A stretch of DNA of 64,000 bases, taken from the NCBI RefSeq assembly GCF_026151205.1, contig NC_087081.1, positions 10,107,113 through 10,171,112 on the forward strand, in the 5' to 3' direction. The notes beneath the pieces were generated by a model. The model saw nothing but the letters and a program-made list of their open reading frames with translations. It had not been told where the DNA came from and did not search any database. Positions within the stretch are counted from its first letter, which is position 1; each line of letters opens with the position of its first letter. A program made the translations under genes and the position numbers. This document shows positions 37,692-63,460 of the stretch, piece after piece. Source of the stretch: Bolinopsis microptera (Eukaryota; Ctenophora; Tentaculata; Lobata; Bolinopsidae).

Positions 37692-38223
37692 GGTACCGCG
37701 ACAATTGACCCCCCGACAATTGACCCCCCGACAATTGACCCCCTATGTAATTACACTGGGGTCAATTGTCGCGAAATCTAAGGTTTAGTACGACAATTGA
37801 CCCTCCGACAATTGACCCCCCGACAATTGACCCTCCGACAATTGACCCCCCGACAATTGACCCCCTATGTAGTTACACTGGGGTCAATTGTCGCGAAATC
37901 TAGGGCTTAGTACGACAATTGACCCCCCGACAATTGACCCCCCGACAATTGACCCCCCATGTAATTAAACTAGGGTCAATCGATCGGGTTAGGGTTAGGG
38001 TTAGGGTTAGGGTTAGGGTTAGGGTTAGGGTCCTGGGTCAGGGTCAGGGTCAGGGTCAGGGTCAGGGTCAGGGTCAGGGTCAGGGTCAGGGTCAGGGTCA
38101 GGGTCAGGGTCAGGGTCAGGGTCGGGGTCAGGGTCAATTGTCGGGGGTCAATTGTCGGGGGTCAATTGTCGGGGGGTTAATTGTCGGGGGGTCAATTGTC
38201 GGGGGGTCAATTGTCGCCCACCC
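37692..38223. mobile_element. Small DNA transposon with 9-bp target duplication and internal GGGTTA/GGGTCA arrays (copy 1)
   Basis: Ends are GGTACCGCGACAATTG and CAATTGTCGCCCACCC; as inverted repeats they match at 12 of 16 positions. Direct 9-bp repeats ATTCATTAC lie at 37683-37691 and 38224-38232. Inside are repeated CGACAATTGACCCC units and a duplicated module with TACACTGGGGTCAATTGTCG. About seven GGGTTA repeats (37986-38030) and about seventeen GGGTCA repeats (38035-38136) follow. A 9-bp duplication with GG..CC ends suggests the Mutator/Rehavkus group, which is known for minisatellite-bearing ends. There is no transposase frame, so it is non-autonomous. Confidence 0.85.
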
Positions 38224-43258: not shown

Positions 43259-43662
43259 GGGTGGGCGACAATTGACCCTGACCCTGACCCTGACCCTGAC
43301 CCTGACCCTGACCCTGACCCTGATCCTGATCCTGACCCTGACCCTGACCCTGACCCTGACCCTGACCCTGACCCTGACCCTGACCCTGACCCTGACCCTG
43401 ACCCTGACCCTGACCCTGACCCTGACCCTGACCCTGACCCTGACCCTGACCCTGACCCTGACCCTGACCCTGACCCTGACCCTGACCCTGACCCTGACCC
43501 TGACCCTGACCCTGACCCAGGACCCTGACCTTAACCCGATCAATTGACCCCAGTGTAATTACGTGGGGGTCAATTGTCGGGGGTCAATTGTCGTACTAAA
43601 CCCTAGATTTCGCGACAATTGACCCCAGTGTAATTACATAGAGGGTCAATTGTCGCGGTACC
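43259..43662. mobile_element. Small DNA transposon with 9-bp target duplication (copy 2, inverted orientation)
   Basis: Same termini as copy 1 in the opposite orientation (GGGTGGGCGACAATTG on the left, CAATTGTCGCGGTACC on the right). Its own 9-bp duplication ATATTTCAC lies at 43250-43258 and 43663-43671. The interior is dominated by about 41 CCCTGA hexamers (about 43270-43520), giving spurious Asp-Pro, Leu-Thr and Arg-Val frames. The GGGTTA type is reduced to about one unit. It lies in or just beyond the 3' end of the K2P gene. Confidence 0.87.
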
Positions 43663-53050: not shown

Positions 53051-53054
53051 TTCT

Positions 53055-53292
53055 AACCCTGACCAGTAATCCTAACCTTAACCCTTACCCTAACCGTAAC
53101 CGGCTAACCGGCTAACCGGCTAACCGGCTAACCCTATCCCAGTAACCCTAGCCCTAACTCTAACCCTAACCCTAACTCTAACCCTAACTCTAACCCTAAC
53201 CCTAACTCTAACCCTATCCCAGTAACCCTAACCCTAACTCTAACCCTAACTCTAACTCTAACCCTAACCCAAACCCCCCCCCCCCCCCCCCC
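53055..53292. repeat. Degenerate telomere-like (CCCTAA)n array with C-tract
   Basis: TAACCCTAAC and variants CTCTAA and CCGGCTAA are repeated over about 220 bp, followed by a run of about 19 C (53273-53292). It is internal to the window with ordinary sequence on both sides. Confidence 0.92.
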
Positions 53293-59457: not shown

Positions 59458-59498
59458 ACTAATTATCCAATTATCCAATTACCTAATAACTTACTCAC

Positions 59499-59642
59499 AC
59501 AGAAGACGAGTAATATTCTTATGAGGACGTAGGGAAGCGCCTCAGTCATGGCCATGTCCCCCAGCCCGACTGTGCTCAATGTTATTGTGTAGAAGTAAAA
59601 ACATTGGACCAAGCTGTCCGTTGAGTCGGTTGCTGTCATGAT
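59499..59642 (-). CDS. K2P gene: second pore (P2) exon
   Basis: Acceptor TGATTTTTCAG and donor TGT|GTGAGTAAG bound 144 nt, phase 0 at both ends. It reads IMTATDSTDSLVQCFYFYTI, then TLSTVGLGDMA, then LPYVLIRILLVFC. TVGLGD is the second selectivity filter of the K2P family, preceded by the pore helix and followed by the start of M4. Confidence 0.88.
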
Positions 59643-60095
59643 CTGAAAAATCACAAGTGATGTTTTTTTAAAAAGAGAGGCTGGGCCTGGTTGGCTCACG
59701 AGAGGATAGCATATGGATGCTTTGCATACCTCTGGGGTATGGCAGTCCTGTGGGAGGATGCCAGTGGAATCAAGATGTGTAATCAAGGATGATGGTAAGT
59801 AAAATGATGTTTTTGTACGCTTTTAAAATGCCTTAAAGTACGCTAAGATACTCAAAAATAAAATGTGGAAGTGGCGCAAAATTTGAAAATTTATAATGCA
59901 TTATAGGTATACGTTGCCAAATACAAATTCAGAATTTTTTAAGAATTAAACATTATGGCTGAAAGAAAACATCAGCTAAATTTGTATCTTTACATAGAAG
60001 CAGGCGAACCAGTGAAATATATAACTAAAATGAATTGAACCAAATAAATGATCAATAGAAAATGTAAAATTAGTAAAAGTAGAAGTTAAACCCAC

Positions 60096-61380: not shown

Positions 61381-61442
61381 GTGTATTCTCTTAAGACAGT
61401 TGACACAGTATCGAATAAACACTCTTGACAGGCGGTAGATTC
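61381..61442 (-). CDS. K2P gene: M2-M3 loop exon
   Basis: Acceptor TATTTTTGCAG and donor CAC|GTAGGT bound 62 nt. GA completes a glycine codon from the M2 exon and 20 codons follow (IYRLSRVFIRYCVNCLKRIH), leaving in phase 0. The basic composition fits the cytoplasmic loop after M2. Confidence 0.75.
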
Positions 61443-61570: not shown

Positions 61571-61678
61571 CTTTACTGAAAAGTGCTAGGTACATTGCCA
61601 TACGAGGTATTCCAACAGAGGAGTACGCCACAGTAAAGAGTCTCCCGGCACTGGTTCTTGGCGACATGTTTCCATACC
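61571..61678 (-). CDS. K2P gene: first filter end and M2 exon
   Basis: Acceptor AAATTTCCAG and donor AAAG|GTTTAG bound 108 nt. GG completes the glycine codon split from the P1 exon. The frame reads YGNMSPRTSAGRLFTVAYSS, then VGIPRMAMYLALFSK. GYGN-x-xPRTxAGRLFTxxYxxxGIP is a hallmark of K2P channels, and an intron within the first GYG glycine codon is a known conserved K2P intron position. Confidence 0.92.
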
Positions 61679-61978
61679 CTGGAAATTTAGATTCCAAGCA
61701 TTTCTAAATTATTCAAAATTGAATGGTTCGTGATGCCAACAGAAATCATGTACAATCAATATCATGCATTACGGCCATTAGTGACACAATACAGCAGCAT
61801 TTGTTATTCAGCAAAATATTTCCGCCTAGGAGGAATTAACAAAATAGGTAATATCCATTATCAGGGAGGGTGCAGTGGAGAATAACTTAATGGTTGGTAG
61901 CATCATTGGTTTAGAACTTTAAAGAAACGTTACAAAGTCCGAAAAACATGAAAACCTCAATACATTCGGTAGAAAGTA

Positions 61979-62268
61979 GAGTGCCACATACCAATAGTGG
62001 TTAGTAGGGTGGCACATACCAATAGTGGTTAGTAGGGTGGCACATACCAATAGTGGTTAGTAGGGTGGCACATACCAATAGCGGTTAGTAGGGTGGCACA
62101 TACCAAGTGGTTGGTAGGGTGGCACATACCAATAGTGGTTAGTAGGGTGGCACATACCAATAGTGGTTAGTAGGGTGGCACATACCAATAGTGGTTAGTA
62201 GGGTGGCACATACCAATAGTGGTTAGTAGGGTGGCACATACCAATAGTGGTTAGTAGGGTGGCACAAA
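61979..62268. repeat. Minisatellite, 28-bp unit derived from the P1 exon end and its 5' splice site
   Basis: About ten copies of GTGGCACATACCAATAGTGG + TTAGTAGG, one with a small deletion. On the gene strand each unit reads CCACCCTACTAACCACTATTG|GTATGTG, the last codons of the P1 exon (ATLLTTIG) followed by the GTATGT donor. The exon-proximal copy is part of the coding exon. Confidence 0.95.
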
Positions 62269-62382
62269 AGTCAAGGGACGACCAGAAATTCCACAAGTTG
62301 TTCTCAGTATGACGGTTGTTGATCTGATGGCATCTCGGTCTGTGGAGGTCCGCTAGAGCTCTCCAGTAACTTTCGTTCATAC
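62242..62382 (-). CDS. K2P gene: first pore (P1) exon
   Basis: A pyrimidine-rich acceptor (TCCCTCTATCAG) and donor ATTG|GTATGT bound 141 nt, phase 1 at both ends. It reads MNESYWRALADLHRPRCHQI, then NNRHTENNLWNFWSSLDF and CATLLTTIG. The W-x-F-W-x-S-x-x-F-C-x-T-x-x-TTIG pattern is the P1 pore helix and filter. The preceding part would be the extracellular cap between M1 and P1. The donor lies within the first unit of the 28-bp minisatellite, so about nine further GTATGT donors follow. Confidence 0.88.
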
Positions 62383-62789: not shown

Positions 62790-63460
62790 TATCTGTGTTG
62801 TACCAGTAATACTGTTTGTATTTAAATATGCGATCAAATTCAACCAATCCTAACAGAGAAGTTGGTTGTTCAACAAAATAAACCCATAACTTCAATTTAG
62901 TGGATAGTCACACCCCCTTATCATCTTCAATCGCTTGATGAAATATAAACAGTATAGGTGTATAAATATGAGTTATACTGTTAGTATTAAGGATATGTGT
63001 TATACCAGTAATACTGTTTGTATTTAAATATGCGATCAAATTCAACCAATCCTAACAGAGAAGTTGGTTGTTCAACAAAATAAACCCATAACTTCAATTT
63101 AGTGGATATTCACACCCCCTTATCATCTTCAATCGCTTGATGAAATATAAACAGTATAGGTGTATAAATATGAGTTATACTGTTAGTATTAAGGATATGT
63201 GTTATACCAGTAATACTGTTTGTATTTAAATATGCGATCAAATTGCACCAATCCTAACAGAGAAGTTGGTTGTTCAACAAAATAAACCCATAACTTCAAT
63301 TTAGTGGATAGTCACACCCCCTTATCATCTTCAATCGTTCGATGAAATATAAACAGTATAGGTGTATAACTATGAGTTATACTGTTAGTATTTACGATCG
63401 CGCGATAATGTTTCAACAAGCCGGATAATGATGATTGTTCCAAAAATATAGATTAATACT
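62790..63460. repeat. Tandem array of an about 200-bp repeat, three copies
   Basis: Units begin near 62793, 62996 and 63197 with GTGTTRTACCAGTAATACTG. They contain TTTAAATATGCGATCAAATT, GTTGGTTGTTCAACAAAATA and TAAACAGTATAGGTGTATAA. A fourth, diverged unit follows. Single copies lie at 41990-42150 and 60.66-61.09 kb. Confidence 0.92.

Follow-up and report, generated by a model that had tools for sequence, protein, structure and literature searches.

The window, a 64,000-nucleotide stretch of contig NC_087081.1 of the ctenophore Bolinopsis microptera, carries a mirage minisatellite in a K2P channel gene: a tandem array whose unit spans an exon-intron boundary, and which therefore repeats a splice signal many times over. 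The array is a real feature and belongs to a known kind of repeat, the 'mirages' of amphioxus. The features of the array and its gene are listed in Table 1.

A mirage minisatellite at the end of the pore-1 exon

TRF reports the array at 61975-62266 of the window, with a period of 28 bp, 10.5 copies, 96% matches and a score of 542; in five random windows with the same nearest-neighbour frequencies the best scores ranged from 0 to 55. Read along the minus strand, the array is composed of ten full units (nine of 28 bp and one of 26 bp) followed by a degenerate tail of 21 bp, TGTGGCACTCTACTTTCTACC. Each unit joins 25 exonic nucleotides from the end of the K2P pore-1 exon (CATLLTTIG) to three intronic ones, and the GTATGT donor recurs unit by unit. 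Unit 1 is itself the last 25 nt of the exon (62382-62242) plus the first three bases of the intron. Ten GGTATGTG donors are present, at offsets of 0, 28, 56, 84, 112, 138, 166, 194, 222 and 250 nt from the exon end. A first-pass annotation had described the unit as the end of a K2P first-pore exon with its GTATGT donor and had counted about ten potential donors in a row; the K2P matches and the unit alignment bear out the former, and the count of ten agrees with the latter.

The array and tail contain nine TACTAAC motifs. The same 299 nt hold no AG dinucleotide: a 3′ splice site therefore cannot form inside the array, and the repeated sites can only be donors. A tandem array, a boundary-spanning unit and a repeated splice signal together make up the structural definition of a mirage minisatellite, and all three are found here; the authentic splice site, judged from homology and reading frame, lies at the edge of the array. 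A search against Rfam returned nothing in the window at gathering scores.

The gene has the signature of a K2P channel. When exons 62382-62242 and 61678-61571 are joined, they give ..NLWNFWSSLDFCATLLTTIG/YGNMSPRTSAGRLFTVAYSSVGIP.., for which the best match among solved K2P channels is KCNK6 (E 8.3e-15); KCNK2, KCNK4 and others are also among the best 60 of 61 matches. The pore-1 motif TTIGYG is followed by M2, with homology continuous across the P1/M2 junction, and a second pore motif, TVGLGD, occurs further downstream. The third exon shows no difference from that of a close paralogue over the 60 of its 62 nt that were compared.

Table 1. Positions of the array and of the K2P gene segments in the window.
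Feature	Position	Strand	Basis
Mirage minisatellite, 10 full units TGTGCCACCCTACTAACCACTATTG/GTA + 21-bp degenerate end copy (61968-61988)	61968..62266	-	TRF and unit alignment
K2P pore-1 exon, 141 nt, MNESYWRALADLHRPRCHQINNRHTENNLWNFWSSLDFCATLLTTI+G; last 25 nt (62242-62266) form part of array unit 1	62242..62382	-	homology, frame
Donor 1, GTATGT, putatively the authentic 5′ splice site; nine identical copies downstream in array	62236..62241	-	inferred from homology and frame
P1/M2 intron, 563 nt, of which array and tail account for 274 nt	61679..62241	-	
Next exon, GYGNMSPRTSAGRLFTVAYSSVGIPRMAMYLALFSK, M2 region	61571..61678	-	
Third exon, IYRLSRVFIRYCVNCLKRI..	61381..61442	-	3′ end inferred from donor GTAGGT
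Pore-2 coding stretch, ..YFYTITLSTVGLGDMA.. (TVGLGD); candidate part of the same gene	59472..59666	-	open in paralogue too

Splice outcomes of the ten donors

When donor 1 is taken, the three exons join into an open frame that reads as a K2P channel, with the junction TTIG/YGN in frame. Donor 2 (+28) shifts the frame and leads to a stop in the next exon, whereas with donors 3 to 10 reading runs into an in-frame stop 44-46 nt into the array. All nine alternative donors end in a stop. The first-pass annotation had correctly foreseen the frameshift at +28, but had placed the first in-frame stop at the +84 donor, whereas it is already encountered from the donor at +56. Its proposal that the first donor is the correct one is upheld: donor 1 is probably the authentic donor of the ten, because the next exon continues in frame from it and because four array-free paralogues end the exon at the same codon.

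Paralogues and the order of events

A DNA query of the genome located the unit array, among the matches listed (counts being lower bounds), at only one other place: a paralogue at C10:8940028, 1.2 Mb from the window gene. Among its other matches, a fragment of 64 bp at C10:8936584 lies outside the array, and weaker ones, at 65-70%, point to other tandem arrays on C11, C6 and C9. The paralogue shares the exon and carries 11 full units, with an identical 21-bp tail. The TGTGGCAC variant occurs in four consecutive units of the paralogue and is absent from the full units of the window; the restriction of these variants to the paralogue implies that units multiplied after the gene duplication. Donors are intact in every unit of both genes (10 of 10 in the window gene, 11 of 11 in the paralogue). 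The earlier expectation that copy number is variable finds indirect support in the difference between the two paralogues, ten units against eleven.

Four further K2P paralogues (L019, L020, L023 and L028) have an intron at the same codon without an array there. Since array-free paralogues share the intron, the array is the younger of the two; and since the close paralogue shares the array, the array arose before that gene duplication. The order of events read from these sequences is therefore intron, array, gene duplication and finally change in unit number.

Just upstream of the K2P exon, window positions 62794-63392 hold three tandem copies of a 202-bp sequence, 97% alike; one copy was seen in the stretch of the paralogue that was examined.

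Mirages elsewhere in the genome

Arrays detected by TRF were examined at 60 loci: 20 from K2P or related channels (20 of 20 matches), 30 from iGluRs (30 of 32) and 10 from ABC genes (10 of 20). These loci were fetched by protein family and are not a random sample, so the counts give no genome frequency. The junction arrays at L015, L016, L021, L052 and L054 are mirages (L017 and L018 repeat the arrays of L016 and L015). At the ABC loci, an array overlapped the matched coding stretch in none of the ten.

In a sister K2P gene (L021, C10:10193710) the M2 exon end and its donor (..FSKGIYR/GTTGGT) recur in a 49-bp unit, giving eight donors. The next exon was not found in the stretch searched, which makes this junction less secure. 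The end of its exon appears to lie three codons beyond that of the window gene.

Two iGluR genes provide the remaining cases. At C4:6353779 (L052/L070) a 54-bp unit repeats the predicted exon end ..TRIHKNIETVGDLLQS./GTAAG in an array of about 28 units, running from C4:6352909 to about 6351400. Of 27 listed unit boundaries, 22 have GT and 19 have GTAAG, and one more GTAAG unit lies outside the list. The unit length is a multiple of three, the units are mostly open, with stops in a few, and the junctions are mostly CAG/GTAAG. At C8:971014 (L054/L069/L071) the repeated element is on the other side of the intron: a 52-bp unit contains the acceptor and the start of the next exon, ..CCCCCAG/GGTTCGTGTTGCAAGGAACAGACACTCTCCC. 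The acceptor pattern is matched exactly 114 times between C8:970339 and 964395, and the last of the 114 units continues into the real exon, GFVLQGTDTLPTAPSGRF / GFVLQGTDTLPTAPSGRFLLFIWWLF... This 114-copy acceptor array and the in-frame iGluR array are more striking members of the class than the K2P array.

For the iGluR ligand-binding part, the only PDB matches below 1e-50 are three ML032222a sequences and 4zdm, structures of proteins from the ctenophores Mnemiopsis and Pleurobrachia. When the whole iGluR serves as query, the top ranks go to vertebrate kainate receptors, and ML032222a, a domain of 256 residues, is placed lower. A COX1 query found nothing in the assembly.

Mirage arrays have thus formed at least four times in this genome, on donor and acceptor sides, and are apparently not rare in it.

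Probable origin and tolerance of the array

We consider it likely that the array was born by slippage and is tolerated, splicing probably taking place at whichever site is closest to the exon body. It probably started by slippage or unequal exchange between exon TGTGCCACCCTACT and the similar intron start TGTGGCACTCTACT, which would have stood 28 nt apart in the pre-array junction. This origin is suggested by the 21-bp tail: the intron start that it contains resembles the exon sequence 28 nt upstream that would have seeded the repeat. Thereafter the spliceosome, by exon definition, would use the site nearest the exon body and yield normal mRNA at any unit number, which would explain why the array is tolerated. 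Transcripts from other donors would carry premature stops and would be lost or fed into nonsense-mediated decay.

In each of the four independent arrays the site predicted to yield normal protein adjoins the exon body, either as the first donor or as the last acceptor. Nearest-site exon definition is then one rule that serves all four and leaves unit number free. Against this rule, published models of competing 5′ splice sites are not uniformly exon-side: SRSF1 can move the choice to the intron-proximal site (PMC5585400).

We also asked what RNA folding predicts. The array RNA folds somewhat better than its shuffles (z -2.6, with 1 of 100 shuffles as good). In silico pairing is about equal for all donors, the first included, and accessibility is low; the same holds for both paralogues and also with three shuffled exons. 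RNA structure as a means of hiding the inner donors is therefore not supported, since predicted accessibility does not distinguish donor 1. The first-pass suggestion that the array may tune splicing efficiency likewise finds no support, predicted accessibility being alike for all donors despite the z-score of the fold. That folding of naked RNA gives no reason to favour the first donor counts against the explanation we prefer.

The array might instead act as a splicing rheostat, in which a fraction of transcripts spliced at inner donors acquires premature stops, and unit number sets the share passing to nonsense-mediated decay and hence the dose of channel. The sharing of one donor sequence by ten sites, nine of which lead to a stop, speaks for this, as does the preservation of every donor in both paralogues. 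However, homogenisation of a young array yields intact donors equally well, the paralogues differ in unit number, and the predicted folding shows no donor-specific difference. Amphioxus mirages, moreover, are reported without aberrant mRNA (PMC3902484). We regard a rheostat as quite unlikely.

The array would be without consequence if this gene copy were decaying or truncated at its 5′ end. An M1 exon was not found in the gene stretches searched with an M1 query taken from the sister gene. Yet across the whole genome that query yielded, apart from the gene it was taken from, a single weak match (E 0.05), despite the existence of several paralogues; because it misses the M1 of other paralogues too, a missing M1 says little. 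Two further points speak for decay: some 3.5 kb upstream of the paralogue's exon lies a broken fragment of a P1 exon, and the pair shows 2 synonymous and 7 non-synonymous coding differences, so that the protein is without a clear sign of purifying selection; the latter point and the missing M1 also weigh against our preferred explanation. Against this, the exons and splice sites that were found are open in both copies, and exon stretches are less diverged (9 of 498 positions) than non-coding ones (62 of 1422, in four neighbouring stretches chosen by us; Fisher p = 0.008), such that the exons look somewhat protected. Decay of the gene has, in our judgement, a low probability.

It is highly improbable that the exon has another end (downstream of the array, for instance, or with the array as coding sequence) and that the donor copies are coincidental: the sequence itself does not single out donor 1, homology and frame doing so, but a stop interrupts the frame 44 nt into the array, stop-free in-frame joining is possible from donor 1 alone, the four array-free paralogues share the end codon and K2P homology runs across the junction.

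Comparison with known systems

In amphioxus, mirage minisatellites have been described for Adh3, TnC, the globins BflGb6 and BflGb9, and PGBD5; they occur on either side of the intron and differ in length between haplotypes or assemblies (PMC3087553, PMC3902484). Regular splicing despite mirages is stated in globin and Adh3 (PMC3087553) and in Adh and TnC (PMC3902484), backed for the globin mirages by RT-PCR (PMC3087553, PMC3902484). The likeness to the K2P array is close: boundary-spanning tandem units, each with a splice signal, and the authentic site at the edge of the array. The differences lie in the organism and in scale. The amphioxus cases belong to a cephalochordate and splicing of the globins was seen by RT-PCR, whereas the ctenophore arrays are described here from DNA; and the globin and PGBD5 cases have, in the counts compared, 2 to 7 units, as against 114 acceptor copies in the ctenophore iGluR.

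Three other systems are related in part. Variable minisatellites at exon-intron boundaries in human segmental duplicates resemble the K2P case in affecting recently duplicated genes; the human ones can change splicing and are tied to new introns, whereas the K2P intron is older than its array (PMC2812944). The tandem dual-specific splice sites of polyubiquitin UBC and VCX3A have one splice motif per unit, as here, and their AG/GT form is shared by L052 (54-bp unit, mostly CAG/GTAAG) and L021 (ACAG/GT) (PMC10809524). The window array was rejected as an array of this type on the lack of any AG in its 299 nt. The Rogers model, in which introns are gained by tandem duplication of a proto-splice site, has the duplication of a splice motif in common with the K2P array (cited in PMC3087553). 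Intron gain of this sort was nevertheless rejected for the K2P gene: an existing intron was extended, and its position is shared by the four array-free paralogues.

Our literature search, outside of which most subscription journals lay, returned no report of mirages in ctenophores; as far as searched, therefore, the present arrays extend a known kind of repeat to a new phylum. TRF repeats are given as 13% of the genome of Hormiphora (PMC8527503), and a high content of such repeats would favour frequent formation of mirages.

Implications

A broader possibility, to which we attach a small though not negligible likelihood, is that mirages are pervasive and fast-moving in ctenophore genes, on both sides of introns and with up to ~114 identical sites, some of which are used. 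Were this so, the iGluR gene at C4:6353779, with its in-frame 54-bp CAG/GTAAG array, could produce a ladder of receptors that vary in the number of 18-residue repeats after M3, frame-shifting arrays such as that of the K2P gene would damp expression through decay, and unit number would be a heritable and rapidly mutating source of regulatory variation.

Arrays of identical splice sites also serve as a natural experiment in how equal candidates are selected by the spliceosome. Normal protein is predicted from the first of the ten K2P donors and from the last of the 114 iGluR acceptors; use of the exon-nearest site would fit exon definition, and would not fit branch-point scanning or a preference for intron-proximal donors. 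The finding of several arrays so far from lancelets suggests that, in intron-bearing genes, a high turnover of minisatellites may generally give rise to mirages.

Arrays other than mirages

The window contains 13 arrays after merging, with a combined length of 4574 bp (period ≥ 9, copies ≥ 3.5, score ≥ 100). At least one of the 13, that of the K2P gene, is tied to a recognised coding exon edge. Donor motifs were more frequent in 28 arrays that had not been fetched by similarity to the window array than in random single-copy sequence (KS p = 0.0003). The enrichment disappeared against dinucleotide shuffles of the units (29 units, these 28 and the window's own; mean p 0.48); in this test L052 alone among the donor-type mirages stood out (p 0.01, against 0.46 for the window unit and 0.45 for L021). 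The donor matrix was not derived from this species, and the enrichment test is a weak one. We thus make no claim of genome-wide donor enrichment in arrays. The lack of a donor excess over shuffles, combined with the single window array at an exon edge, makes mirages look like a minority among minisatellites.

Several arrays close to channel and transporter genes were not assigned to the class. In a third K2P gene (L022/L066, C8, about 16158609-16159783) a 41-bp array of ~29 units takes up almost all of the P1/M2 intron, starting close to the donor and reaching the acceptor; it was not counted as a mirage, there being no recognisable exon sequence in its unit. Nor was exon sequence recognised in the array units of L028, L061, L062, L074, L077, L079 and L080. 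L030 and L063 were rejected as mirages, both being coding-type repeats. The former (positions 1133-1460) repeats 12 bp of coding sequence in frame within a potassium-channel-like gene, giving many NLTGN/NLIGN-like repeats before the pore. At L075 (positions 1-204) a 53-bp array with an acceptor-like CTGTAG lies downstream of an ABC transporter exon and is cut by the end of the locus; it is possibly another acceptor mirage.

Two other kinds of repeat were noted in the window. An interstitial telomere-like CTAACC repeat is located at 53053-53276. At 37699-38216 and 43273-43593 there are CGACAATTGACCCCC blocks together with their reverse complement, with runs of GGGTCA/TGACCC; CGACAATTGACCCCC also occurs beside an ABC gene (L074) and may be a dispersed element.
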